A model generated the notes under the pieces. It saw only the letters and a program-made list of their open reading frames with translations. It had not been told where the DNA came from and ran no database searches. DNA of 64,000 bases from Candidatus Saccharimonadota bacterium (GTDB lineage: Bacteria; Patescibacteriota; Saccharimonadia; Saccharimonadales; Saccharimonadaceae): the NCBI GenBank assembly GCA_017540545.1, contig JAFYAV010000001.1, positions 1 to 64,000 on the forward strand, written 5' to 3'. Below are positions 5,610 to 39,227 of this stretch, piece by piece (the stretch's first letter is position 1; every line of letters starts with the position of its first letter). The position numbers and the translations under genes were made by a program.

Positions 5610-8600
5610 TCAGCGCCAACGCAGTACAGTACCGTCTTCAGTGTCCTGAACGCTCATAGAACCGCTCTGGTTGGCTTGTTTGGCCGGCTCCGCCGGCGCA
5701 ACCTGCGCTTTTTCCGTCTGCACTCTCTGCACACTCCCAGCCGTTACAGCCTCAGGGCTCACGTTCAACACCTTACGTGGTTCGCTTTGCGGTTTTTTAG
5801 ATTCAACCTTTGGTTCATGCTTAATCTTAAGTTTTGCTTCTGTCCTCAAGAAATCATTCGTTGCTTTCTTATTCTCAGCCTTAGTCGTAGTCGCCGCATT
5901 CTGCGCCGCCGTAGTTGTCCAGGTCGACCCCGTCGTCATTTCGTCCAACTCCTCTGCTGCACTTGTTGGCGCGGGCTCTATTGCGGCCTTCGGCTCCACC
6001 ATCGGCGCAGGCTGTTTTACTGAAGCTGCAGTCGCCTCTGCTACCGGCGCAGGCTGCGCCATTTTCGGCGCTGGCGCACTTCCGGCCGCTAACGATGTTG
6101 TCGGAGCAACCGGTTCGGCTTTCGGCGCCGGCACGTCTAGCACTGCAGGCACTGGCTCCGCCTCCATCTTTGGCTGAAGCTTTTCGGGCGAAGCCCCCGG
6201 CCTCCGCGCCGAAGCCAACGCCTCCTTCTCCTCCATCATCTTTGCAGCATCCTCACGCGTCTGCTTACTCAACTTAGCCTTCTTTTCTAACCAAGAATCC
6301 AAGAAATTCTTCTTTGGCTTAGCTGACGCCGCACCGGCAGCACCTGCTGCCACGCCAGCAGCCCCTCCTGCGGCCACCCCGCCCGCCGACTTCGCTCCAC
6401 TACTCTTGGTATCATTTGCTGCCAAGCGTGCATCAATCTCCGCTTCAACCTCTGCGCGCGGCCGACCATACTTCGTCAAAGCGTATGCCTTCATGCGCTT
6501 CATTAATTCTTCATTATCCTCGCCCATAGGTGGCAAAGATTTCATCGTAAACGGCGCTGTCGGCGTGTCAAACATCATCACTGTCGCAATCCAGTTATAG
6601 TTCGGCTGCTTATGCAAATCCTCTGCAGTAAATACCGGCGAGAAAGCTTTTTCCATCAATTCCGCATCCGTCACACCAATACGACCAGATAGTAAGGTAC
6701 CCACGTTGCCCAACAAAGCCTCGCGAATCTTATCCGTCAGCTGCGTCATAAACTGGTTAGCCAAAATCAGGTTCAAGCGATATTTGCGCGCCTCAGACAG
6801 AATTGACTCAAAGCTCTCTGTCGCAAAGTTCTGAAACTCGTCTACAAAAAGACAGAAATCGACACGTTCATCTTCTGGCGTATCTTGGCGGCTCATTGCT
6901 GCCGCTTGGAATTTCATCACGAAAATCATACCAAGCAACTTCGCATTCAACTCGCCCGTCTTACCCTTCGACAGATTCACGAGTAAAATCTTTTTACTAT
7001 CCATGATTTCACGAATATTAAATCCAGATTTCGGTTGGCCTAAAATATTGCGCATCATTTTATTCGAAAGGAATGGCCCCCATTTCGACACGAACCAGCT
7101 CGTCACTTCGCCTGCATCGTTCGATTTCTGCGATGCTGGGAACTCTTTCGTCCAATAATCATAAACCGTCTTATCTGTCACATATTTGAGTTTTCCCTTC
7201 ACAAACTCTGGGTCAATAAAGCAACGCGGAATATCTATAAAAGTACCACCGGCCGGATCGCTCATCAAAAGCAACGCCGCGTTGCGGAACATGTGCTGCG
7301 CACGCGGGCCAAAAATACCCTGATTCTGTGGATCGTACAAAGAAGTTAGCATATTAATACCTTCCTGTACGATAAAGTCTTTTTGGTCTTCAGACTGGAA
7401 TTCGAACATATTCATACCAACCGGATTGTCCATATTGCCCGGCTCGAATAAAATCACATCATCCATCCGTTCTTGCGGCACCCGACTGAGCAACCATTCA
7501 ACCGCATCGCCGTGCGGATCAATGAAGGCAAAGCCACGCCCGTCGCACATATCTTGATACGCCAAGTTCTCCAAAAGTACCGACTTACCAGAACCCGTAG
7601 CACCAATTGCGTAAGTATGGCGACGGCGGTCTTTCTCTCTCAGGCGAATCACTTTCTTCTCGCCGCGGAATTCATTGACACCCAAGATAATGCCATCCTC
7701 TGCCAACTTCGCTGGGCCATCTACCTGCTTTACCGCCTGCCGTTCAACCTGCGATGTCGGAATAGCATTCTGCGCTGGCAAATGAAATAGGCTCGCCATC
7801 TCTACGCTATTCAAAATCATGCTCTTTTGTGTCTGCGGAAATATTCTCAATATATAATCGCGCACCAATTCATCCGAACGATTCATAATATCGTAACGGA
7901 AACCATTATATTGAGGCAGGTCAAATTGCGAGAAAATCGACACTATCCCATTCAATAGCGATTCCGAGCGCACTTTATTACTCGAACTGGCAACTACTCT
8001 GATCAGCACCTCAAAGCCAGGATATTTAGTCTTCTCCTCTATCTTCTGAATCTCTTCTTGCTGCAAGTTGGTCAACTGTTTATCCATATCTTTGTATGGA
8101 TCATGCGCATCTGGCGGTTCCCACAGTGCCTTTGCAATATCACCAACTAAATTACCCACATTGTACAAAACGCGATTAAGAAAATTACCCGTACTATCTC
8201 GCCATTTCTTCCCATCTTTTATATTTTGTACTCGCTCCAATGATTTTGCTACCCATTTCCCGTCCGTCGGGCGGAACAATATTTGTAGGCCAATTCCATC
8301 ACCTTTTTTTGCTACGGACATTGCATTGATTAAACCCAATGCCACATCGCGTTTCGAATCCTCATAGGTTGCAATCGGATACCAGTAGCTCTCTTTCATC
8401 CTCAGCTCACCCCCAGATACCGCATCGAGCTTCCCCTCTGCGCTAAAGAAGTTTGGATCCTCCACCTCCTCTAGGCGCGCCGTCGGATATGCTGCCGTGA
8501 TAGCCTGCTTAATCGTCTCTGTTAATATTCCTGGTACTACGGCGTAATATTTAATAAAACCATCATGCGCCACTATTTCGAAGCTAATATGCTTCTGGCC

Positions 8601-8876
8601 GTACAACTTCGCCCTCAATCCTTTCTTTAGGGTCGAAGAAATAATACTATACATCACCTGAGCCTCGGATAGCTGCTCGTTAATTACATCACGCTCATCG
8701 CGCCCGCCCACCTCAATATCGTCAGTGCTCGGCGGTAGATGAATTAACATCGGCACCATCTTTAATGCCCGCGCAATATTCTTCTTGTCCCGTTTACTCT
8801 CCGCCCACATCTTCCAAACAAGCACCAAAAAGACAATCGCCACCACTGCCGCAATCGCTATCGTCCAAATATCCAC
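5610..8876 (-). CDS. TraG/VirD4-like type IV secretion ATPase, membrane anchored
   Basis: A 1088-residue protein: one N-terminal membrane helix (residues 4-22), a long region of mixed structure, then a HerA/VirD4-type ATPase with Walker A GATGSGKSVLLE near residue 425 and Walker B LFVDEFQNF near 675, followed by SEARKYRLNLILANQF, typical of coupling-protein/DUF87 ATPases. The last ~250 residues are a low-complexity Ala/Pro/Lys tail. Such proteins move DNA or protein through type IV secretion channels; the substrate here is unknown. Translation starts at GTG, sharing its G with the upstream TAG stop (TAGTG), so it is coupled to the 8876-9337 gene. Confidence 0.85.
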   Translation of the reverse strand: MDIWTIAIAAVVAIVFLVLVWKMWAESKRDKKNIARALKMVPMLIHLPPSTDDIEVGGRDERDVINEQLSEAQVMYSIISSTLKKGLRAKLYGQKHISFEIVAHDGFIKYYAVVPGILTETIKQAITAAYPTARLEEVEDPNFFSAEGKLDAVSGGELRMKESYWYPIATYEDSKRDVALGLINAMSVAKKGDGIGLQILFRPTDGKWVAKSLERVQNIKDGKKWRDSTGNFLNRVLYNVGNLVGDIAKALWEPPDAHDPYKDMDKQLTNLQQEEIQKIEEKTKYPGFEVLIRVVASSSNKVRSESLLNGIVSIFSQFDLPQYNGFRYDIMNRSDELVRDYILRIFPQTQKSMILNSVEMASLFHLPAQNAIPTSQVERQAVKQVDGPAKLAEDGIILGVNEFRGEKKVIRLREKDRRRHTYAIGATGSGKSVLLENLAYQDMCDGRGFAFIDPHGDAVEWLLSRVPQERMDDVILFEPGNMDNPVGMNMFEFQSEDQKDFIVQEGINMLTSLYDPQNQGIFGPRAQHMFRNAALLLMSDPAGGTFIDIPRCFIDPEFVKGKLKYVTDKTVYDYWTKEFPASQKSNDAGEVTSWFVSKWGPFLSNKMMRNILGQPKSGFNIREIMDSKKILLVNLSKGKTGELNAKLLGMIFVMKFQAAAMSRQDTPEDERVDFCLFVDEFQNFATESFESILSEARKYRLNLILANQFMTQLTDKIREALLGNVGTLLSGRIGVTDAELMEKAFSPVFTAEDLHKQPNYNWIATVMMFDTPTAPFTMKSLPPMGEDNEELMKRMKAYALTKYGRPRAEVEAEIDARLAANDTKSSGAKSAGGVAAGGAAGVAAGAAGAASAKPKKNFLDSWLEKKAKLSKQTREDAAKMMEEKEALASARRPGASPEKLQPKMEAEPVPAVLDVPAPKAEPVAPTTSLAAGSAPAPKMAQPAPVAEATAASVKQPAPMVEPKAAIEPAPTSAAEELDEMTTGSTWTTTAAQNAATTTKAENKKATNDFLRTEAKLKIKHEPKVESKKPQSEPRKVLNVSPEAVTAGSVQRVQTEKAQVAPAEPAKQANQSGSMSVQDTEDGTVLRWR

Positions 8877-26095: not shown

Positions 26096-26286
26096 CGCTG
26101 CCCTTTCTTTTAGTTATTTATATCTGTTATTATACTATATTTTCCCCACATCGCCCAGATTACATACCGACCACCTTTACTACCCAAAGACATATAACGC
26201 AATATGATTGACAAATTCGCAATTACATGCAAAAATATTACAAATTCGGAACAAGTACATTTACATTTTTCCTAGGAGGTTCCCAC

Positions 26287-27549
26287 ATGGAATTGCAAAA
26301 CATTCTACACGAATTGGCGTCAATTAATTTGAGCGCGCTCAAGATAACAACGCCGTCAAACCAAAACGACCTAAAAAAGGCATTCATCGAAGCCTTTAGT
26401 AGAGGGCGCTTCACCAATCCACTCTTCACCTATAACCTAGACGCAAACGAAACAACAGCAAAAAGAAGGTTATTAACCCAGCTTAAAGACGAAACAAATC
26501 GCGCAATCGACAATATTGCAGATTCACCCGAGCGCCTTGCATACTGCCTGCTCAAATCAGCCATCGCAAAGAAGCTCACGCTATGCGACGTTTCCGATTC
26601 TATACTGAGAGGAGACGACACCTCGACTAAGGTCCTCATCGCGAAATTCTACGGAAAAATAACCGACGAGTTACTGAATGTCGCAAGAGACTTGGCGTCA
26701 GGAAAATCCATCGCAAACCCATACTTGGAACAAACGATGCGAATCGTATCTCCGGAACGCGCCGACCGCTGCGCCAAGAAGTATACGCCCGAAGAGATGA
26801 AAGAAGTGTTCGATTATGCACTCGACATTTATGGATTATCGAAAGAGTGGCAAGCCATCGTAACCAATGAACCCCGGTACACGAGCATTACGGTAAACGC
26901 AAACGACGAACGAGGACGCGTTATCGCAATTCCGGCAACAAGAAAACCGGAAAACATCCTCAAAGTCATCCAGTTAGCGGCGCACGAGATAGAAACACAC
27001 GTAAGGCATAATGCGAATTGCTATTATTTACTTTACGAAACATGCGGCAGTATTTCGCTACTCAACGCAACCACACTGGAATGCGTAGCCCTCGACTCGC
27101 CCTACATTGAAGGGCTTGCAAAAATCGCCGACGCCATCACGACTAAAAGATGTCTCGGCGACGAAAGCGGCGCTCCTCATCCATGGTATGTGCTCGCCGC
27201 CCAAAAAGCAGCCGAAGGTAATACCTTCGCTCAGGTGGCGGAGTATATCTATGAAAACTGCGGTAGGAATCCCGAAGAGTGTTGGAAAATTACAACGCGC
27301 ACTTTCCGCGGGTGTAGTGATCCCAGTACCCCTTCCGGATTTGCGAATCCAAACGGAATACAGTACCTGGATGGATACGTGCGGGCAATCGCTCACTACA
27401 ACGACCCCGCCGTATTCAACTATGGAAAATTTAATCAACAGAACATTCAATTGTTCAGAGAAACCACAGGTAAGGATCTTGGCACTTTTCCGCCCCACCT
27501 GGCATATCAGGATTTCGTTCCGTTGCTTCTCAATCAATTTTGTAACTAA
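26287..27549 (+). CDS. DUF1704 (MATCAP-like) putative zinc carboxypeptidase
   Basis: A 420-residue protein. HEIETHVRHNAN fits the HExxxH zinc motif of the DUF1704/MATCAP family, and YIEGLAKIADAI matches the region of its QEGLA motif, which supplies a further ligand. The family includes tyrosine carboxypeptidases; the bacterial substrates are not known. AGGAGG sits 7 nt before the ATG at 26287, so the longer frame from 26227 is not used. Unlike its leaderless neighbours it has a true leader, its own terminator and frequent AGA/AGG codons, which suggests separate acquisition. Transcribed against thrS. Confidence 0.72.
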   Translation: MELQNILHELASINLSALKITTPSNQNDLKKAFIEAFSRGRFTNPLFTYNLDANETTAKRRLLTQLKDETNRAIDNIADSPERLAYCLLKSAIAKKLTLCDVSDSILRGDDTSTKVLIAKFYGKITDELLNVARDLASGKSIANPYLEQTMRIVSPERADRCAKKYTPEEMKEVFDYALDIYGLSKEWQAIVTNEPRYTSITVNANDERGRVIAIPATRKPENILKVIQLAAHEIETHVRHNANCYYLLYETCGSISLLNATTLECVALDSPYIEGLAKIADAITTKRCLGDESGAPHPWYVLAAQKAAEGNTFAQVAEYIYENCGRNPEECWKITTRTFRGCSDPSTPSGFANPNGIQYLDGYVRAIAHYNDPAVFNYGKFNQQNIQLFRETTGKDLGTFPPHLAYQDFVPLLLNQFCN

Positions 27550-28625: not shown

Positions 28626-29126
28626 ATGAAAACCGACATCGTTTTATATAATACCGAGGAGGAAAGCGTAAAAAAAGAAAAACGACGCTTCAAGATTCTC
28701 ATCGCCGTTGCTTTTTTCTTCGTTCTGGCTTCTTTTGTTACATTAATAATCAGGATAATCATACGCAACAACGCAATCAGCGCCGAACCACCAAAAATTA
28801 GCGTCGAAGACCCAGACAATTCTGACGTTATCCACGTCATAGAGAATGACGACTTTGAAATCCCTAAGTTCGAACAAATAAATACAACTTGGTCCTGCGG
28901 AAACGGCGCATCTATAATTCAAATTACTAATGAGCGTCTATATAGGAATCTAACCACCGGTGCGCAAAGCAGCTACTCCTACGATGCAGAAAATGGCATT
29001 CTGTCTATAAATTCCCCAATTAGCACCGAGTATTACTTAACAATTGACGGTTCCCTACTACGGATGACCAACTCGACAACCGACGCCGTAATCGAATGTG
29101 AACGGAGAGAAAACTATGAAAAATAA
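28626..29126 (+). CDS. Single-pass membrane protein of unknown function
   Basis: A 166-residue protein: charged cytoplasmic N-terminus (~25 residues), a long membrane helix (ILIAVAFFFVLASFVTLIIRIII), then an outer region with a small beta-rich domain (TTWSCGNGASIIQITNERLYR ... YDAENGILSINSP). The final codons overlap the start of the pilin-GH114 gene by 11 nt, so the two are an operon and may work together at the surface. Confidence 0.6.
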   Translation: MKTDIVLYNTEEESVKKEKRRFKILIAVAFFFVLASFVTLIIRIIIRNNAISAEPPKISVEDPDNSDVIHVIENDDFEIPKFEQINTTWSCGNGASIIQITNERLYRNLTTGAQSSYSYDAENGILSINSPISTEYYLTIDGSLLRMTNSTTDAVIECERRENYEK

Positions 29127-31626
29127 ATATTTCTTACTCAGCGCCCTCTTTATTGCCCTATTCTGTTCGTTTCTACTCACCAATAACTGCCACGCGCTAA
29201 ACAGTTATAGTGGACAAATCAAGTTAGTCAAACATTTCAAGACCGGCAATAAATGCGGCGTCGGAACTGATTGTTTATATGACGACGGCAGCGGAGAGAT
29301 GCAGAGCTTTGCCCTGACGCCGAGACATATCGTGCTATCATATCTAATTGACTCTGGCAGCGCCAAAGATTACAAGGAAACGACGCGTAGTCGTATCTAT
29401 TTCATCGACCGTAAAACTTTCAAAATTGCAAAAATCCTACCAGATAAAAAGAACTTCACATGCAACAAATACGGCAATCCGGGCTGCTACAATCACCCAG
29501 GTAGTCTTGCCTACAATAGCAAAACCGGAAAACTACTTCTGGCCACCCAAGCCGGCACTTTCGTTTTTGATGACGTAACTATGCAATATGAAAGCAGAAT
29601 GACTGGCCTGCACAATACCAAAATCGCCTACAATCAAGTACGCAACTGGTATTGGACCGGCTTTGAGGGCAATACGATTAAAGATGTCAAAATGAGCACT
29701 ATCCAAAAAACAAGCGTTTCCAAATATCCAAACGCAAAATACGAGGAGAATCCTTCAACCTGGAAAGATTACCTGGTAGTAAACAACTACATGGGCGGCA
29801 AAGACGCAATTCTGCGTTTCTATAATTATAAAAATTCCAAACTAGTAAAAGATATCGGCATCTCTCAAAAAGCCATCAAGACGGACGTCGTAAAAAGTGT
29901 TCAATTCGATAGCGATGGCACCGCTTTCCTCATGACGCCACTAAATAACGAAGGTAACGCACGCGGCCGAGGTGCCGCAATATATGCCATTAGCGGCAAA
30001 GACCTCGGCATTAGCGAATCTACAAATACAGACCCTAACAGCAAGCCGACCTCGGGCAATAATACCGGTTCTAGCGACAACTGCGGAAGCGGCGACGAAT
30101 CGTGCGATTGCGGCGTCGAGTCTACTAAAAGAGCCGCCGGAGCCAAGTCTAACGAGCCTGAAATAGAATTCGGCGTAACGCGAGACGTCAAATGTACATC
30201 CATCCTGCCAGACAGCCTCTGTAATCCAAATGGTGGCGGTCAACAAATAGCAGATATTCTCGATCTTGGCATCAATACTATGACTTTCGGCGTCGGCATA
30301 ATTGGCTCTTTCGCAATCATTATTTGTGGCTTTATGGTAATGTCGGCCGGTGGCAACTCATCACAAGTCGAAGCGGCGAAAAAACGTTTTTACGGCGTCG
30401 TCATAGGCTTAATAACATGGTGTGTTTTCTCAATGGCGCTAAATCTGTTTATCGTTACGGAATCGAGCAAGCCTTCGCAGGTCTCTACTAGCTCCGGAGG
30501 AAGCAGTAGCAACACTAGCTCTGGAGGCAAAGCTAGCAGTGGTAGCACAGGAAGCGGCGGCTCTAGCGGTTCAGCGTCGAAGCAAGGAAAAACGGCCGCT
30601 CAGACCGAAATTCTTCCAACCTGCATCAAGTTAACCGTCGACTCTATCGTCGTAGCAGTCGGTAAAACTAAAACAATCGGCTATACCATCTACCCCGCTA
30701 ATGCGACTAATAAAGATGTCATTTGGTCTTCAAAAAACTCCAAAATTGCCACCGTCAATAAAAAAGGCGTTGTGACCGGCGTATCGGCAGGAACAACCAC
30801 GGTAGAAGCAAAAACCAAAAACGGCAAAACTGCTACGGTTTCCGTAACCGTTGGCAGCCAAACCTCCACTCCAGAAAAAAGCTACGGCGTATTCTTAGGG
30901 CTCGACTACGAGGATGGCGAAAAAGTGCTAAGCAAAATGTACAAGTATAAACTTATCGTAATTGATTTCCAGGAGCATTACCCGAAATCATACATCGACA
31001 AGTTACATGCTAAAGGTATCAAGGTATACTCCTATCTAAATATTGGCTCTGTCGAAATGCACGGTCGATACTATTCGAACCGATTTAATGATTACTATCT
31101 GGATCACTATGAAAACTGGAAGGACGAAATGTGGGTCGACGTATCTAAAACCAAATTCCAAACTTTCATCACTGACGAATTAGAGCCATCCATCCGCAAA
31201 AAAGGCGTTGACGGCTACTTCATCGATAATACTGATGTTTATGCAAATTACAAAAAAGACAAAATCTACAAAGGCCTCCAGACCATGCTAAGAAAAATCC
31301 ACAGCTACGGCCTGCCAGTCCTAATCAATGGTGGCGACGAATTCGTCTCGCGCGCTATATCCGACGGCAGCTACACAAGCCTATTCGATGGTGTCAATCA
31401 GGAAGAAGTATTCACCCTAATCAACTTCGACAACAAAACTTACCACAAACAGAAGTCAGATGAAACTAAGTATTACAAAAATTATCTCCAGACCGTTAAA
31501 AAAGCCGGACTCATGGTTTATCTGCTAGAATACGGCTCCGATCCTAACCTAGAAAAACAAATGAAAAGCTACTGCAACCTTAATGGCTTTTCATATTATT
31601 ACGCCAAGACCCTGAAGCTAGAATAA
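29116..31626 (+). CDS. Pilin-helix protein fused to Big_2 and GH114-like domains
   Basis: An 836-residue multidomain surface protein. Residues 1-28 are a signal peptide (FLLSALFIALFCSFLL); 30-310 look like repeated beta blades; ~388-448 are two membrane helices flanking AAKKRF, the T4SS pilin (VirB2/TrbC-like) pattern; a Ser/Gly linker follows; ~498-582 are a bacterial Ig-like Big_2 domain (KLTVDSIVVAVGKTKTIGYTIYPANAT); ~588-836 form a TIM-barrel like GH114 endo-alpha-1,4-polygalactosaminidases (YSYLNIGSVE, GVDGYFIDNTD, LINGGDEF). The ATG at 29116 follows GGAGAG and gives a clean signal peptide. It would place a glycan-cutting domain on the cell surface or a secretion structure. The catalytic activity is inferred. 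Confidence 0.75.
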   Translation: MKNKYFLLSALFIALFCSFLLTNNCHALNSYSGQIKLVKHFKTGNKCGVGTDCLYDDGSGEMQSFALTPRHIVLSYLIDSGSAKDYKETTRSRIYFIDRKTFKIAKILPDKKNFTCNKYGNPGCYNHPGSLAYNSKTGKLLLATQAGTFVFDDVTMQYESRMTGLHNTKIAYNQVRNWYWTGFEGNTIKDVKMSTIQKTSVSKYPNAKYEENPSTWKDYLVVNNYMGGKDAILRFYNYKNSKLVKDIGISQKAIKTDVVKSVQFDSDGTAFLMTPLNNEGNARGRGAAIYAISGKDLGISESTNTDPNSKPTSGNNTGSSDNCGSGDESCDCGVESTKRAAGAKSNEPEIEFGVTRDVKCTSILPDSLCNPNGGGQQIADILDLGINTMTFGVGIIGSFAIIICGFMVMSAGGNSSQVEAAKKRFYGVVIGLITWCVFSMALNLFIVTESSKPSQVSTSSGGSSSNTSSGGKASSGSTGSGGSSGSASKQGKTAAQTEILPTCIKLTVDSIVVAVGKTKTIGYTIYPANATNKDVIWSSKNSKIATVNKKGVVTGVSAGTTTVEAKTKNGKTATVSVTVGSQTSTPEKSYGVFLGLDYEDGEKVLSKMYKYKLIVIDFQEHYPKSYIDKLHAKGIKVYSYLNIGSVEMHGRYYSNRFNDYYLDHYENWKDEMWVDVSKTKFQTFITDELEPSIRKKGVDGYFIDNTDVYANYKKDKIYKGLQTMLRKIHSYGLPVLINGGDEFVSRAISDGSYTSLFDGVNQEEVFTLINFDNKTYHKQKSDETKYYKNYLQTVKKAGLMVYLLEYGSDPNLEKQMKSYCNLNGFSYYYAKTLKLE

Positions 31627-31629
31627 AGA

Positions 31630-32583
31630 TTAACCTAGCGCAGCTATAACGAAGTTCGTAATTGCAAATGCGGCTAAAGTTACAATCAAACCAATAACAG
31701 CATAAAGAATCGTCTTCTGGGCAGACTGAATTTTTTGCGGATTACCAGCAGATACCATGTAGCGGACGCCGCCAATTACTATAACAATCACAGCGACAAT
31801 ACCAATCCATGTATACACGGTAGAAATCACATTCATCGTCACATTCTGAAGTTGCTTTTCGCCACCGCTGACCGGCGAATAAGCACAATAGTATTTCTCT
31901 AAATCGGTCAAATCAGCCCCTCCGCAATCAAGATTATCGCGCACAATCTTCTCCGGCTTATAAGACTCATACGGCTTCGACGTCTCAGCCTTTTTCGCTG
32001 ACGAATTCTGAGTCCTTTGTTGTGTAGTTTGAGTTTTCTTACGACTACTAACACTTTCATCACTACGCGAAGTCGAATTGCTCCCTGAGCTACTGCTCTT
32101 GCCATCTATCTTTGGATCATATCGCCACACAATCGACCAACTTCGACGTTTATACTTCTTAATTGATATTTCTTTGCCTGAACTATCACCTTGCTTTCCG
32201 TCGTAATTCTTTGTAGCTTCCGCGAGCTTACAGTCACCAATATACTGCGCCGTATGCGTATGGCCATGCATTAAAATATCGCCACGCTTAAGCGTATTAC
32301 AATCGTTGAGATTTACCTTCTTTGTGACATTCGTAAAATCTTTATCCTTTTTAAGATATCCGTCCAACTGCCCAGTACCAGCCATCCATTTTTTTTGCGT
32401 CGTAGGCTTATCTTTCAGAGTGCCCGCACCGGCATAATGCCAACCGAAAAATACAAGTGTCGAACATTTATAATCCGGCCCAGTTGGATGCTTGAGGTCA
32501 TAACCATGCTCTTTACTATTGGCAGTATCAATAATCCAATTAACTGCCTTATCGATGGTGGCTTGTTTTTCCGCTTCTGTCAT
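31630..32583 (-). CDS. NlpC/P60-like hydrolase fused to a T4SS pilin helix pair
   Basis: A 317-residue protein. Residues 1-150 resemble an NlpC/P60-type cysteine peptidase with Cys40 in DYKCSTLVFFGWHY and His110 in RGDILMHGHTHTAQYIG; 160-225 are a Ser/Lys/Thr linker; 245-315 contain two membrane helices with GGVRYMVSAGNPQKIQSAQKTI between, the T4SS pilin (PF18895-like) pattern. There is no N-terminal signal peptide, so how the enzyme domain crosses the membrane is unclear. Such enzymes cut peptidoglycan stem peptides. The start overlaps the upstream gene by 4 nt (ATGA). It is convergent with the pilin-GH114 gene, 3 nt away. Confidence 0.78.
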   Translation of the reverse strand: MTEAEKQATIDKAVNWIIDTANSKEHGYDLKHPTGPDYKCSTLVFFGWHYAGAGTLKDKPTTQKKWMAGTGQLDGYLKKDKDFTNVTKKVNLNDCNTLKRGDILMHGHTHTAQYIGDCKLAEATKNYDGKQGDSSGKEISIKKYKRRSWSIVWRYDPKIDGKSSSSGSNSTSRSDESVSSRKKTQTTQQRTQNSSAKKAETSKPYESYKPEKIVRDNLDCGGADLTDLEKYYCAYSPVSGGEKQLQNVTMNVISTVYTWIGIVAVIVIVIGGVRYMVSAGNPQKIQSAQKTILYAVIGLIVTLAAFAITNFVIAALG

Positions 32584-33443
32584 TTCAATTGCTCCATAAT
32601 GTCATAACTCATTGCCGCAACGCTTGTCGCACATAAACTTGGTGCATAGAGGAAATCGTCGTATGATTCGTTAATATATTCCTCGTCTACTTCTGAAAGG
32701 TCAATAGCATCTTCGCAATTATAGCTTTCACAACCATTAATAATCTTTTGAGAAGCCTCATAAATATCATATTGGATTGACGTCAAATAACTATGCGCAT
32801 ATTGGCTAGCATAATCCGATCCTATACCCTCAAGTTTGTCCATATACTCAACAATAATCGGAATATCATATCGACTCTCTTCTTCACCGACCCCATCGTC
32901 TTCGACCTCCTTATCGCCAAGTATATCGTAGTATCGTTGTCCGAACTCTTTATAGGTAAGCTCTAACGAATCAAAAACATCGTCTAGTGTCGGCGCAGGG
33001 TTATTAATATAAAAATCTAAAAACTCAATATCGGCCTTCTGCTTATTAATTAGTTCCTGCGCTCGTTCATTCAAGCCGTCGCCAATACTGTCGGTAAAAA
33101 TCTTGTTCAAAACGCGAGCACGGCCGATGTACTCTTTTGCCTCTTCCTTGTCGCCGCCCATAATAACATCATATATTTTATATTTTTGATTTTCCTCATA
33201 GGGCGGAAGCTTCTCGTTCGACTCTTCGCCGCTAATAAGATAATTAAAAAAATTGAGCGCAACTTGACTTTTTACCATCTTCTGACTAGCGATTTTTCCC
33301 GAAAACACAACAACTACAATCAGTACGAGAGCTACCAAAGGTAAAACGATAAACCACGCCTTTTGGTGCCCCTTCGTTTTTGTTGCTGCGAACTCAGGAT
33401 TGTGCATCTGGTTCATAAATGATTGTTGAAAATTATCTTGCAT
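32580..33443 (-). CDS. Membrane-anchored helical protein of unknown function
   Basis: A 287-residue protein: a Gln/Asn-rich cytoplasmic N-terminus, one membrane helix (WFIVLPLVALVLIVVVVF) and a long, acidic, mostly helical outer domain. Family not recognised. It overlaps the NlpC-pilin gene by 4 nt (ATGA), so it is cotranscribed and probably a partner of that enzyme. Confidence 0.65.
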   Translation of the reverse strand: MQDNFQQSFMNQMHNPEFAATKTKGHQKAWFIVLPLVALVLIVVVVFSGKIASQKMVKSQVALNFFNYLISGEESNEKLPPYEENQKYKIYDVIMGGDKEEAKEYIGRARVLNKIFTDSIGDGLNERAQELINKQKADIEFLDFYINNPAPTLDDVFDSLELTYKEFGQRYYDILGDKEVEDDGVGEEESRYDIPIIVEYMDKLEGIGSDYASQYAHSYLTSIQYDIYEASQKIINGCESYNCEDAIDLSEVDEEYINESYDDFLYAPSLCATSVAAMSYDIMEQLK

Positions 33444-33480: not shown

Positions 33481-34182
33481 CTATTTCCTAATCCCCACTA
33501 GCAGTACGTCGCGTTTATTCTTCTCGCTCCCATCACACGTCGAAAGCAATATATATCTTTCTGAAATTACATCTTCCCTAACTATTTCAGATCGTTCAAC
33601 TATATAGGCTACTACATTATCGTCCTTCCGGCTTCTTTCGACATTATATATCTCCCAATCATCCGCCTGCACCTCCGCATAAGCAATCACCGAAATAGTT
33701 AAATCGCCATTTTTTGTCTTCAACACGCCACTGTCATGCTCATCAAAGAAAACACTGTCCTTAAACTTACCGACATCCGAGAACATCTCCCCATTCCCCA
33801 TTCTATGACCATAAATAATCGAAAAACCGTCCATAAACTTCCCATTATTCCGATAGTCCAAGAATAGACTTCCCGCCGTCGCAAATTCGCCCTTATAATT
33901 CCTATTCAAAAACCAGCTATTATCTTTGCCCTGCGTTACTGGATAATTAATATTCGTATCACGAATCGTCAGTCACGCCACTACATATTCAGACTCCGCA
34001 TCAAGCTTTTCAAATAGACTACTGCTGCCGTCATTAATTGCGGCTACTTCAATCAACTTTTTGTCTATCTTCGCACTCGAAGACGCTATCATTGCATCTA
34101 TTAACGCGAATAGCCCAACGCACAACAATGGTATTGTTGCTATATATAGCGCCATATCGAGTAATTTATTCACTAACCTCAT
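33481..34182 (-). pseudogene. Class B-type sortase interrupted by one in-frame TGA
   Basis: Sortases join surface proteins or pilin subunits by transpeptidation. The N-terminal membrane helix (LLDMALYIATIPLLCVGLFALI) and the catalytic His (IIYGHRM), Cys (LLSTCDG) and Arg (KRDVLLVGIRK) are all present across 234 codons. At 33973-33975 the frame has TGA: ESEYVVA-stop-LTIRDTNINYPVTQGKDNSWF. In related sortases this position is usually Trp (VVGWIxIPGTNIxYPV), and the frame is otherwise intact. It is either a nonsense mutation or a recoded/readthrough codon. The ATG at 34182 overlaps the upstream gene by 17 nt. Confidence 0.85.
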
Positions 34183-34477
34183 ATTTAAAACCTCGTACAC
34201 TTAATTTGGCAATTACCTTGCCGACCACCACTCCGTCACCATCATCGCCATCACCTCCGTATTCTATCGCTTCCCCGTTCGCCATTAACATTACATCGCC
34301 CACATCAAAATTTCGACATACCCGACAAAACAGCAATAAACTTCCGTCTTCTGCGCCGGCGCCTCTAGACAAGCCAAACCAGACGCCGAATAACAAAAAA
34401 CACACACTCGCAACGAACCCCGCCTTCAAAAGTAGGCGCACCCCCCTGCGCCATTTTTGTTGTTTTATTTTAAGCAT
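34166..34477 (-). CDS. Reduced signal-peptidase-like protein of the pilus cassette
   Basis: A 103-residue protein with one membrane helix (AGFVASVCFLLFGVWFGL) and a short outer region EDGSLLLF...NFDVGDVMLM that recalls the start of type I signal peptidases (DGSMxP...GDxxLV). The catalytic lysine region is not seen. Pilus islands of Gram-positive bacteria often contain a SipA-like, non-catalytic signal peptidase relative, which fits its place between pilin and sortase. Assignment rests largely on context. Confidence 0.5.
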   Translation of the reverse strand: MLKIKQQKWRRGVRLLLKAGFVASVCFLLFGVWFGLSRGAGAEDGSLLLFCRVCRNFDVGDVMLMANGEAIEYGGDGDDGDGVVVGKVIAKLSVRGFKYEVSE

Positions 34478-35544
34478 TTTGTTTTACGTTGTTTCTTTTT
34501 GTTTGTATGAATAATCGCTAAAGCAATTCCCGTAAATGCTACCGCAAACACGTACGGCATTACGTTTATTACAATACCAGTTAATATACTCCCCTCTTTA
34601 TGGTTCAAAAACTCAACCACATTGCTTAACGATTCTTCGTCGACTACTACGGTTTTTGTCTCCGATAACGAACCCACCACGCCATCTACATATTGCACGT
34701 AACCATTATCATCGACTTCTTCCAAACTATACCTCAAGCCAATTGGCAGCTCATCCCTATTGCCATCGAAACCTATCCATACAGTCTGTCCATCCTTTAG
34801 ATAAATGTAGTCCTCGTCGGCATCTATTGTAATCGCACTGTTCGTTGTTATACTTTCGCCACCATAATCAACAACATCCGACTGGCCATACACCGAAAAC
34901 ACATCACCTTCATGCGCACCATCAATCACTACCCTAAACTTGAAGTATTCATTAGTATTAGCCAAATTACCGGATACAGTTTTCGTAACTTTTACACGAC
35001 TCCGCGTCGCGTCGGATTCAAATACTGGGTAAACTTTGTCACCAGTGTCATGGTCTTTAACCTGCGCCGCCATCGTTGCGATATACTCCCCAGTCGGCTG
35101 TCCATTCTCTAGCTTATTTCGCACGCTAACATAAAAATAGTATTCCTTCTCGTCATCAATCGGATAATTAATCGAATCCGCAGAAGCCGTTTCTCGCACA
35201 ATAAACTTATAATCGCCCAATGCCGTAAATTCATAATCCGTGAGAACCGGCCCACCATATGCTACAACCTCACTATTCGCATCGGGCATACCTACTACGC
35301 TCAATTCAAATTCGTCAGGCATACCATTTACTACTGCTGGATTCCCGGGATCCTGAACCAACGAATAAGTGAACTCGTTATCTACATAACTCTTCGTATT
35401 ATGTATTATGCGCGTAATCTCTATTCAACTCGGGCTATCCAGATTATCCCCCAAAGTCGTACTCGTTGCGTATGTTGCCGACGACGAAGCAAAGCTCGCC
35501 ACCAATAAGCCGAGAATCGCCCCAATTTTCAATATTTTTTTCAT
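34465..35544 (-). pseudogene. Sortase-type pilin (FctA/Spy0128-like) interrupted by one in-frame TGA
   Basis: A 359-codon gene for a secreted, wall-anchored pilin. It has a signal peptide (MKKILKIGAILGLLVASFA), an FctA-like domain (EFTYSLVQ ... YKFIVRETA ... YYFYVSVRN), a second Ig-like domain (VKVTKTVSGNLANTNEYFKFRV) and a C-terminal SILTGIVINVMPYVFAVAF + KKKQRK sorting region of the DUF7601 type. TGA at 35425-35427 (codon 40, LDSPS-stop-IEITRII) falls between signal peptide and first domain. GGAGG precedes the ATG at 35544. It heads pilin - signal-peptidase-like - sortase, and both the pilin and the sortase contain in-frame TGA. Confidence 0.82.
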
Positions 35545-37663: not shown

Positions 37664-39154
37664 TTACATTATTTTACCATAAACCACGAAAAGACACAGC
37701 GTCGCCGCAATTGCCATTCCTCCACCTACCCAATAGAAAACGTTGGAGTCAGCATCGTTGCCATCCTCATCGTCAATAGCCTTAGTAATTTCTTTTGCCA
37801 CCGGATGCAAGTTACTATGCGCCACCAAAGTACCTTTCGCCACACTTAGCCTCACTACATCCTTCGACTCTTCATCTTCACTCTTTTCGGCGTAGTAACT
37901 TTCACCGCGCACCGAATAGTCCGCCTCAGACTTAACAGTAGTAACAAAGGCCCGATAGCCTTTCGGCAACTCCATCTTATAAGCCTCGCTCTTATCCCCA
38001 AACTTCACGACCTCAAAATTTGTCTCCTCATTTGTATCTACGGTTTCCGACAACACAACTTGCAGCACACTTCCCTCTACGCTCGCCCCCTCTTCTAGAG
38101 GCATTTTCTCGCCATCGGTATACAAACGCGTAATTTGCGCATCTTTCCCTACTGTCACATCGCTAAGATCATCGTTGCCAGCACCACCACCAATGCCGGA
38201 AGCACCCCAACCGGCCACCGCATTTTTTATTACGCCATCATTAACCGCAACCATCGTTTTCGCATCAGTTTCGCAAACTTTCGCACCAGATCCAATCACT
38301 GCCCCACCTAGAGCTTCCTCGGCACTACTTTCGTATCCATAAATACCATCAAAAACGCCGCCATCAATCTCAACGGATACATCTCTACTACAGCTACCAC
38401 CGCCAATGCCGGCGGCAAAATCACCACCACGTACTTCCTTCAAAGTTCCACCTTTGATTTCTATCTTTGCTCCAACATAATTGCCACCACCAATTCCTGC
38501 GCTTCCGCCATTCCCAGTAGCCGACACACTTCCTTCATTTATCACAATCTCACCAGCCGTATAGTCTTTTTCAAGCAACTTTTCCTCACCAGTACCACCA
38601 CCAATACCAGCACTATTTGCGCGCGCCTCAGCTATAATCGTGCCCCCTTCAATCACTATCTTGCCATTAATAGCCTTCGCATCTTTTGTCCCATTTCCTC
38701 CAATGCCAGCGCCACCATCTGCGCCACCAGTCACAATCAACTCCCCATCGCCGCTAATCGTCAGAGCAGCCATATTATTATTATCAATATAGCCAACCGC
38801 AATACCCGCATTCTTTCCACCACTAGTGACTTTATTTTCGCCAACCAAAATAACTTCCACCTCGACGCCACTATCAATTGAGATTGCCGCATCATCGAGC
38901 GAATTGATATCAACATTATCTAATACAATCCTCGCATTACCCGTGACGTGCAATGGCATATTCGATTTTCCAGACACGAGCACTTCGCCACCACTAATTA
39001 TCACCTTACCGCCAGCTACCAAGTAACTTCCGCCATTTTCGCCGCTCTTAATATCGTATCCCGATACCTTCTCTGCACTTGCGAAAGGCGCAAACAATAC
39101 AGAAATCCCCAAAATAAAAAGTACACTAAAAACAGCGACCCTGCTTTTACGCAT
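37664..39154 (-). CDS. Beta-helix surface protein with AGIGGG repeats
   Basis: A 496-residue exported protein: signal peptide (VAVFSVLFILGISVLFAPFASA), a long parallel beta-helix-like region with repeats centred on AGIGGG (five to six copies spaced 30-50 residues, each after an EGGTI/KGGTL strand), a smaller beta domain and a C-terminal membrane helix (WVGGGMAIAATLCLFVVYG). Similar architectures are annotated as carbohydrate-binding in other bacteria. No LPxTG motif. The ATG at 39154 is preferred over an in-frame GTG at 39163. It heads a run with the glycosyltransferase pair. Confidence 0.75.
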   Translation of the reverse strand: MRKSRVAVFSVLFILGISVLFAPFASAEKVSGYDIKSGENGGSYLVAGGKVIISGGEVLVSGKSNMPLHVTGNARIVLDNVDINSLDDAAISIDSGVEVEVILVGENKVTSGGKNAGIAVGYIDNNNMAALTISGDGELIVTGGADGGAGIGGNGTKDAKAINGKIVIEGGTIIAEARANSAGIGGGTGEEKLLEKDYTAGEIVINEGSVSATGNGGSAGIGGGNYVGAKIEIKGGTLKEVRGGDFAAGIGGGSCSRDVSVEIDGGVFDGIYGYESSAEEALGGAVIGSGAKVCETDAKTMVAVNDGVIKNAVAGWGASGIGGGAGNDDLSDVTVGKDAQITRLYTDGEKMPLEEGASVEGSVLQVVLSETVDTNEETNFEVVKFGDKSEAYKMELPKGYRAFVTTVKSEADYSVRGESYYAEKSEDEESKDVVRLSVAKGTLVAHSNLHPVAKEITKAIDDEDGNDADSNVFYWVGGGMAIAATLCLFVVYGKIM

Positions 39155-39227
39155 AAACTCCACTTACTCCTTTTTCCTAATCACTATTTAACCACAAGCC
39201 ATTTTCAATCGCAAGCATGTTTTTGGC

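Follow-up and report, generated by a model that had tools for sequence, protein, structure and literature searches.

A phage-type NlpC/P60 domain on a T4SS pilin module in a Saccharibacterium, one of a genus-wide repertoire of pilin fusions, several with partner genes

The gene at 31630-32583 of the window, by which we mean the whole 64,000-nucleotide stretch of DNA analysed here, joins an N-terminal NlpC/P60 domain of the phage endolysin/tail-lysin type to a C-terminal T4SS (VirB2-like) pilin module. It belongs to a repertoire of pilin fusions that is genus-wide in rumen-type Saccharibacteria and several members of which have matched partner genes; its own layout, in which the enzyme precedes the pilin, is rare there, being seen in 2 of 45 genomes. 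The genus-wide set suggests that cell surfaces are attacked or reshaped with a modular toolkit. The parts of the gene and of its partner, with what each assignment is based on, are as follows; G243 is a further genome of the genus, which carries the orthologue.

31630..32583, minus strand: NlpC/P60-pilin fusion gene, 317 aa, ATG start (ORF, domains, AlphaFold model)
32104..32583, minus strand: phage-type NlpC/P60 (endolysin-like) domain, aa 1-160, without signal peptide (PF25309, phage relatives, model)
32464..32466, minus strand: codon of Cys40, putative nucleophile (invariant in 38/38 aligned rows; Gly in the G243 orthologue)
32254..32256, minus strand: codon of His110, putative catalytic base (invariant in 38/38; substituted in the G243 orthologue)
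32206..32208, minus strand: codon of Asn126, putative third catalytic residue (Asn in 32/38 rows)
31864..32103, minus strand: linker, aa 161-240, mostly disordered, with Cys220/Cys233 (pLDDT, Cys positions)
31633..31863, minus strand: T4SS (VirB2-like) pilin helix hairpin, aa 241-317 (PF18895, NF045849, model helices)
32580..33443, minus strand: partner gene on the upstream side, 287 aa, with a single transmembrane helix at its N-terminus (shares the 4 nt ATGA with the fusion gene)

A convergent fusion of a pilin with an NlpC/P60 enzyme had been proposed for this locus in a first-pass annotation made from the sequence alone, and the open reading frame and the domain matches bear this out. The endolysin-like domain ELLD (PF25309) is matched with 43.1 bits against a cut-off of 27 (E 5.6e-11), T4SS_pilin (PF18895) at aa 243-312 with 41.1 bits against 26.6 (E 1.9e-10) and the NCBIfam pilin-like family NF045849 with 47.4 against 40, so that the similarity to T4SS pilins on which that annotation had made its reading depend is found above both cut-offs. 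The gene converges with its neighbour at 29098-31626 (plus strand), with 3 nt between the two stop codons. Its frame extends just six codons 5' of the ATG (open frame 323 aa) and thus offers no signal peptide by way of an earlier start; a signal peptide hidden by a misplaced start is thereby ruled out, and the absence that the first-pass annotation had noted is real. Structure prediction, which it had named as a check, models an NlpC/P60 fold and the pilin helices: in the AlphaFold model, for which viral sequences were used, pLDDT is mostly above 90 in the N-terminal domain and falls below 50 at aa 165-217 and 236-242 of the linker, and helices span aa 241-279 and 282-316.

Several lines of evidence place the enzyme module with phage endolysins and tail lysins. 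Its best phage relatives by tblastn lie in 11 records (six of Bifidobacterium phage, two of Eggerthella phage and three unassigned human faecal ones) and carry, in some records, a tail protein or tail lysin annotation. As a single-sequence query the N-terminal domain retrieved no viral relative; with a five-sequence profile, 211 of the 232 candidate stretches on viral contigs proved to hold one, and the best 80 of these were retained. Cys40 and His110, already proposed as the active site in the first-pass annotation, are invariant in all 38 rows of an alignment of the target with 37 viral homologues, 32 rows of which have Asn at the position of Asn126. The profile also matches solved NlpC/P60 structures, e.g. 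CwlO and RipA, among which the single sequence found nothing relevant. As to the fold, Foldseek returned 13 matches at E<=0.001, with NlpC/P60 at the top. Among the NlpC/P60 structures listed by VIA-align, first place goes to a phage endolysin, Lys2972 (8tw1), aligned over 131 residues with Z 14.6 and rmsd 2.6; RipD, entitled a non-catalytic NlpC/P60 protein in its entry, is also in the list. The domain also contains Cys95 and Cys118, which are both present in the G243 orthologue and co-occur in only one of the 37 viral rows, and which would fit a disulphide. We infer from these relationships that the domain is a putative peptidoglycan hydrolase of the NlpC/P60 (C40) kind.

The C-terminal module is 61% identical to a plain pilin from the same genome, and the cysteine pair ahead of it, Cys220/Cys233, is typical of its pilin family and kept in relatives. 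By hydrophobicity (helices at aa 252-270 and 295-313) and by the model it has the two-helix membrane hairpin of VirB2-like pilins. Compared with the PDB by Foldseek, the hairpin alone gave no significant match, with no VirB2 pilin among the matches listed, a result that rules nothing out, and no close relative of the whole fusion protein was found among named genome contigs. VirB2-like pilins are small subunits, and since 240 residues precede the pilin module here, the target carries such a module and is not a canonical pilin. Nor does it adjoin virB4. The T4SS cluster of the genome lies at 171-188 kb of the same contig, about 140 kb from the target at 31.6 kb, and contains near its pilin array (171-175 kb) a PrgI family/VirB3-like protein, a TraG/VirB4-type ATPase and a phage-lysozyme-like protein (PF18013). 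This cluster resembles, as far as the published descriptions go, the T4SS locus of cultured S. epibionticum, whose T4SS and pilins are reported to be essential for growth on the host (PMC10633639; PMC12857230).

On which side of the membrane would the enzyme lie? Among the fetched loci, a signal peptide is present in 42 fusions that carry a C-terminal domain and in 11 in which a long domain lies between it and the pilin; with signal peptides accompanying domains on either side of the pilin, the hairpin seems to have both its ends outside. The sample comprised 262 pilin ORFs from loci chosen partly for fusions, 27 of which were set aside because they are cut by locus ends. Of 204 modules, 187 have a net positive loop between their helices, the target among them, and 198 have an N-side flank that is not positive. 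Of six ORFs scored as lacking a signal peptide and having an N-terminal domain, only the target and the one at L020 are credible, those at L030, L042, L054 and L160 looking like start-codon overshoots or a broken frame. The N-terminal tail of the 65 plain pilins without signal peptide has a median of about 39 and a maximum of 95 residues. The conserved pilin topology together with the two cysteine pairs suggests that the enzyme faces outside, and on this sequence evidence it is likely to be located outside the cell, although no signal peptide accounts for its export. VirB2 itself is described as being pulled from the membrane by VirB4 and VirB11 (PMC9259494).

The partner gene directly upstream has an orthologue in the same place in G243 (34-36% identity), where the overlap with the fusion gene is 11 nt. 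As the offset of the ATG in the overlap thus differs between the window and G243, the relative frame, and hence a frameshifted fusion of the two genes, is not conserved, and a frameshift fusion with the upstream signal-anchor gene is ruled out. Partner genes, defined as lying within 40 nt on the same strand, encoding 110-320 aa and having a single N-terminal transmembrane helix, are found beside 19 of 57 distinct fusions as compared with 7 of 166 control genes not near fusions (Fisher p 7e-8, with orthologous loci that are not independent); the count leaves out the partners at L017 and in G243, which the script missed. Only one of 56 plain pilins has one. The partner families track the enzyme families, in that the CHAP-like fusions (also that at L080), the C39-like fusions, the GH114 fusions and the target with its orthologue have partners of four distinct families, and none of the SGNH-, alpha/beta-hydrolase- and GDPD-type fusions among the 57 scanned has a partner gene. 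Because partner genes are linked to fusions and their families are matched to the enzymes, the pattern looks like effector-immunity or effector-chaperone pairing.

A full-length relative of the target was seen only in G243, at 41% identity, and a query of the N-terminal 215 residues matches in 2 of the 45 genus genomes, one of them that of the target itself. The G243 orthologue has lost the catalytic Cys (replaced by Gly), His and Asn, but its fold region, linker and pilin module are still there, as is the partner upstream. G243 can therefore do without catalysis, and immunity alone would not account for the retained partner; a partner kept beside an inactive-looking enzyme speaks against a purely protective role of the partner in the target pair. 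The 3' neighbour in G243 is a gene for a VirD4-type coupling ATPase; such a gene is also present in the window at 5610-8876. In a wider profile search the enzyme domain was detected in 20 of 394 genomes of the family and on a pilin only in G000 and G243, with no pilin in the fetched loci of the 18 others. In G162 (L244:88-1977) the same phage-type NlpC domain is not on a pilin but at the C-terminus of a 630-aa frame, in which a signal peptide and an SGNH-like region were recognised by eye. Any mechanism proposed for the target has to account both for its lack of a signal peptide and for an orthologue that looks inactive.

The convergent neighbour and its own partner gene comprise the following features.

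29098..31626, plus strand: convergent neighbour, 842 aa; its start may be the ATG at 29116
30241..30465, plus strand: divergent pilin module of the neighbour (PF18895 at 16.9 bits, below cut-off; local HMM)
30946..31611, plus strand: GH114 domain of the neighbour (PF03537, E 1.2e-20)
28626..29126, plus strand: partner gene beside the neighbour, 166 aa with one transmembrane helix (ORF, partner scan)

The first-pass annotation had described the two genes as a pair in which the same kind of pilin module is combined, in reverse order, with two different wall-degrading domains. The order holds for the target, with its N-terminal enzyme and C-terminal pilin; the neighbour is built differently, from a signal peptide, an N-terminal domain, a pilin, Big_2 and GH114, a layout also seen at L057:8581-11034. 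The pilin module of the neighbour is divergent and stays below the Pfam cut-off; the local pilin HMM that detects it was made from 14 segments of this genome with target and neighbour among the seeds. GH114 is, to our knowledge, not a peptidoglycan-degrading family, and a wall-degrading domain in the neighbour is not supported. The two genes are, moreover, no special pair but two of six fusions in the genome. The partner of the neighbour has a homologue beside the GH114 fusion at L057 (35% identity, E 5.9e-30). The N-terminal domain of the neighbour, about 300 residues long, has related domains in L017:530-1894 and L018:1909-3267, which likewise precede a divergent pilin; the domain has no Pfam match and no PDB sequence match, and for want of the latter we leave it unclassified.

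Other genes of the window deserve mention in their own right. Just upstream of the fusion operon, at 33481-35361, lie genes for a sortase-domain protein (PF04203) and for a DUF7601 protein with a C-terminal membrane segment, which perhaps belong to a separate sortase-linked surface structure. A MATCAP-type metallopeptidase (PF08014, 44 bits), of a family named for a microtubule carboxypeptidase, is encoded at 26227-27549 of this Saccharibacterium, and the region 37664-39163 encodes a 499-aa protein with glycine-rich repeats, an N-terminal hydrophobic segment, a C-terminal membrane helix and no Pfam match.

PF18895 occurs at 14 places in the genome, six in fusions, two as one double pilin and six as plain pilins, and was found in all of the 11 other genomes examined from the genus. 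The six fusions are the target, the neighbour, two on contig C2 and one each at 232 kb and 327 kb of C1, the contig of the target. The recurrent layout of such fusions, beside which there are others, consists of a signal peptide, a Cys-Cys segment, the pilin, a Gly-rich or acidic linker, two Big_2 domains and a variable enzyme. Pilin fusions with NlpC/P60, CHAP-like, C39-like, phage-lysozyme, SGNH-like, alpha/beta-hydrolase, NAGPA and GH114 domains occur in the genus. NlpC/P60, C39-like peptidase, phage tail lysozyme and NAGPA, as well as GH114 in the neighbour and a prolyl oligopeptidase-like alpha/beta-hydrolase in the fusion at L067, score above the Pfam cut-off; CHAP, SGNH (DUF4886), metallo-beta-lactamase and other alpha/beta-hydrolase labels are below it, and GDPD was assigned by eye. 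Similar fusions, the second thing on which the first-pass annotation had made its reading depend, are therefore abundant in relatives, and the modular part of the 'modular weapon or host-entry system' that it suggested is strongly supported, with one pilin module combined with many hydrolases; its use as a weapon or for host entry is conjectural.

These fusions are mostly confined to one genus. In a class sample with five candidates scored per genome a pilin-Big_2 profile matches 145 of 392 genomes, yet among the matches listed those that run from pilin into Big_2 are, within this genus, in G000, G094, G136, G144, G152, G159, G171 and G199 and, outside it, only in G469 and G210, which belong to a single sister genus. 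When 379 genomes were sampled across the phylum, with six candidates scored in each, such matches were found only in G000 and G094. Named relatives are Saccharibacteria MAGs, several of which are, by title, from yak, buffalo or other ruminant material. Some individual loci may be added. At L016:5151-9972 lie two tandem pilin-Big_2-CHAP-like fusions, and behind each of them comes a gene for a single-pass exported protein that overlaps or adjoins it. These two small genes are paralogues (29% identity), and the first fusion is also preceded by a single-pass gene, a homologue of which precedes the matching fusion at L057. A short pilin without signal peptide is joined to a phage tail lysozyme (PF18013, E 5e-17) at L061:1718-2803, a second phage-type wall enzyme on a pilin, and L263:7233-11408, close to the pilin array of its own genome, encodes a protein of 1391 aa in which there are five Big_2 domains.

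How might such a protein work? We propose that the target is a modular T4SS pilin, i.e. a phage-derived hydrolase displayed on the surface or on a pilus together with a cognate partner, an explanation which is putative as to location, pilus incorporation, substrate and partner role and which, taken whole, we give about an even chance of being right. A phage-derived NlpC/P60 peptidoglycan hydrolase domain would have been grafted onto a VirB2-like pilin module via a flexible linker. The hairpin would sit in the membrane with both ends outside, so that the enzyme would be displayed on the cell's outer face or, should the pilin module be able to co-assemble, on the T4SS pilus. In either place it may cut peptidoglycan where the host cell is contacted, or locally in the wall of its own cell, and the translationally coupled single-pass partner may be a cognate inhibitor (immunity protein) or a chaperone/adaptor. 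We count against this explanation the long N-terminal domain without signal peptide, given that the N-tails of plain pilins that also lack one do not exceed 95 residues, the loss of the catalytic residues in G243, and also the distance of about 140 kb to the T4SS cluster and the finding of just two orthologues in 45 genomes. A bolder version, in which the T4SS pilus carries polymorphic contact enzymes, i.e. interchangeable hydrolases on pilin subunits which it would display or deliver against host envelopes, many with a cognate membrane-anchored immunity or adaptor protein, we offer tentatively, as possible but well short of an even chance. If it were true, the effector of an effector-immunity system would itself be a subunit of the secretion pilus, and the target would be the case in which the enzyme is phage-derived, N-terminal and without signal peptide.

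Alternatively, the module might be a membrane anchor only, a pilin-derived hairpin that tethers a surface enzyme to its own membrane and never enters a pilus or T4SS. The fusions are scattered, mostly outside the T4SS cluster, and the fused modules are bulky, as such a role would allow. However, a single helix would do as an anchor, yet the fused modules retain pilin positions: a set of 34 pilins, both fused and plain, shows no variation at G47, G57, G58, Y61, S64, G66, G84, F92 and I94 (numbering of the target segment), and the 61% identity of the target module to a plain pilin points the same way. On balance we think this rather unlikely. Less likely still, in our estimation, is that the enzyme is a helper of the VirB1 type that opens the cell's own peptidoglycan for passage of the T4SS and does not act on the host at all. 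Most Patescibacteria with VirB2 homologues are described as lacking VirB1 (PMC12102498), for which a pilin-borne hydrolase could substitute; the T4SS cluster, however, already has a phage-lysozyme-like protein of its own, modules of the esterase, SGNH and GH114 types have no obvious role in opening the own wall, and the target fusion is rare within the genus.

The two facts singled out above enter into two further readings. If the N-terminal domain stayed in the cytoplasm, with the topology of the hairpin inverted and the domain acting as a regulator or binding module, then neither the lack of a signal peptide nor the loss of the catalytic residues in G243 would be surprising. Against this stand the positive charge of the loop, as in other pilins, the conservation of the pilin Cys pair, the presence of Cys95/Cys118 in both orthologues and the absence of peptidoglycan inside the cell, and we hold it to be improbable, a shade more so than the helper role. 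The target might, finally, be a decaying recent fusion in which a phage endolysin domain was caught beside a pilin without any selected function, which would agree with its presence in 2 of 45 genomes and with the inactive-looking G243 copy; but both copies have intact frames at about 41% identity and retain pilin and upstream partner in the same order, so that this is very unlikely and the least probable of the readings weighed here. The modular T4SS pilin is our preferred explanation.

Several known systems may be compared with it. The catalytic domain is homologous, with the same Cys and His, to those of phage tail lysins and endolysins (Eggerthella and Bifidobacterium phages; Lys2972, 8tw1); in phages it is part of tail proteins or endolysins, whereas here it is found on a pilin and in a chromosomal gene. 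A peptidoglycan hydrolase linked to T4SS is familiar from the VirB1-type hydrolases, e.g. PrgK, TraG of pIP501 and CwlT. VirB1 proteins, however, are not pilins, and the target has no lytic transglycosylase domain by Pfam and is far from the T4SS cluster. PrgK and TraG of pIP501 are also named in an account of the Patescibacteria (PMC12102498), which describes VirB2-like pilins in arrays of 2-11 genes. The likeness to these arrays lies in PF18895, in the phylum and in the position of arrays beside VirB4; the description of the arrays in that account mentions no enzyme fusions, and the fusions reported here are outside the array.

A further parallel is provided by the modular type IV pilins, PilB of Streptococcus sanguinis and its relatives, among whose frequent modules a peptidase is listed (PMC8179133). 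There, as here, a module is grafted on a pilin, many modules are interchangeable and display on a filament has been proposed. Those pilins, however, have a class III signal peptide, whereas the pilin here is of the unrelated two-helix T4SS (VirB2-like) type and the target has no Pfam match for a class III signal peptide/N-methylation motif and no N-terminal hydrophobic segment. Unlike in the modular type IV pilins as described there, enzymes outnumber adhesins, and cognate exported partner genes are present. Modular pilins are thus already known for type IV pili, and for the T4SS-pilin version a survey of titles and abstract openings found no report of enzyme fusions. With these fusions the principle of the modular pilin, so far one of type IV pili, reaches a pilin family unrelated to theirs. 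The enzymes carried on T4SS pilin modules, peptidoglycan hydrolases, esterases and glycosidases, are testable candidates for display at the host surface, and their matched partner genes hint at self-protection or dedicated assembly.
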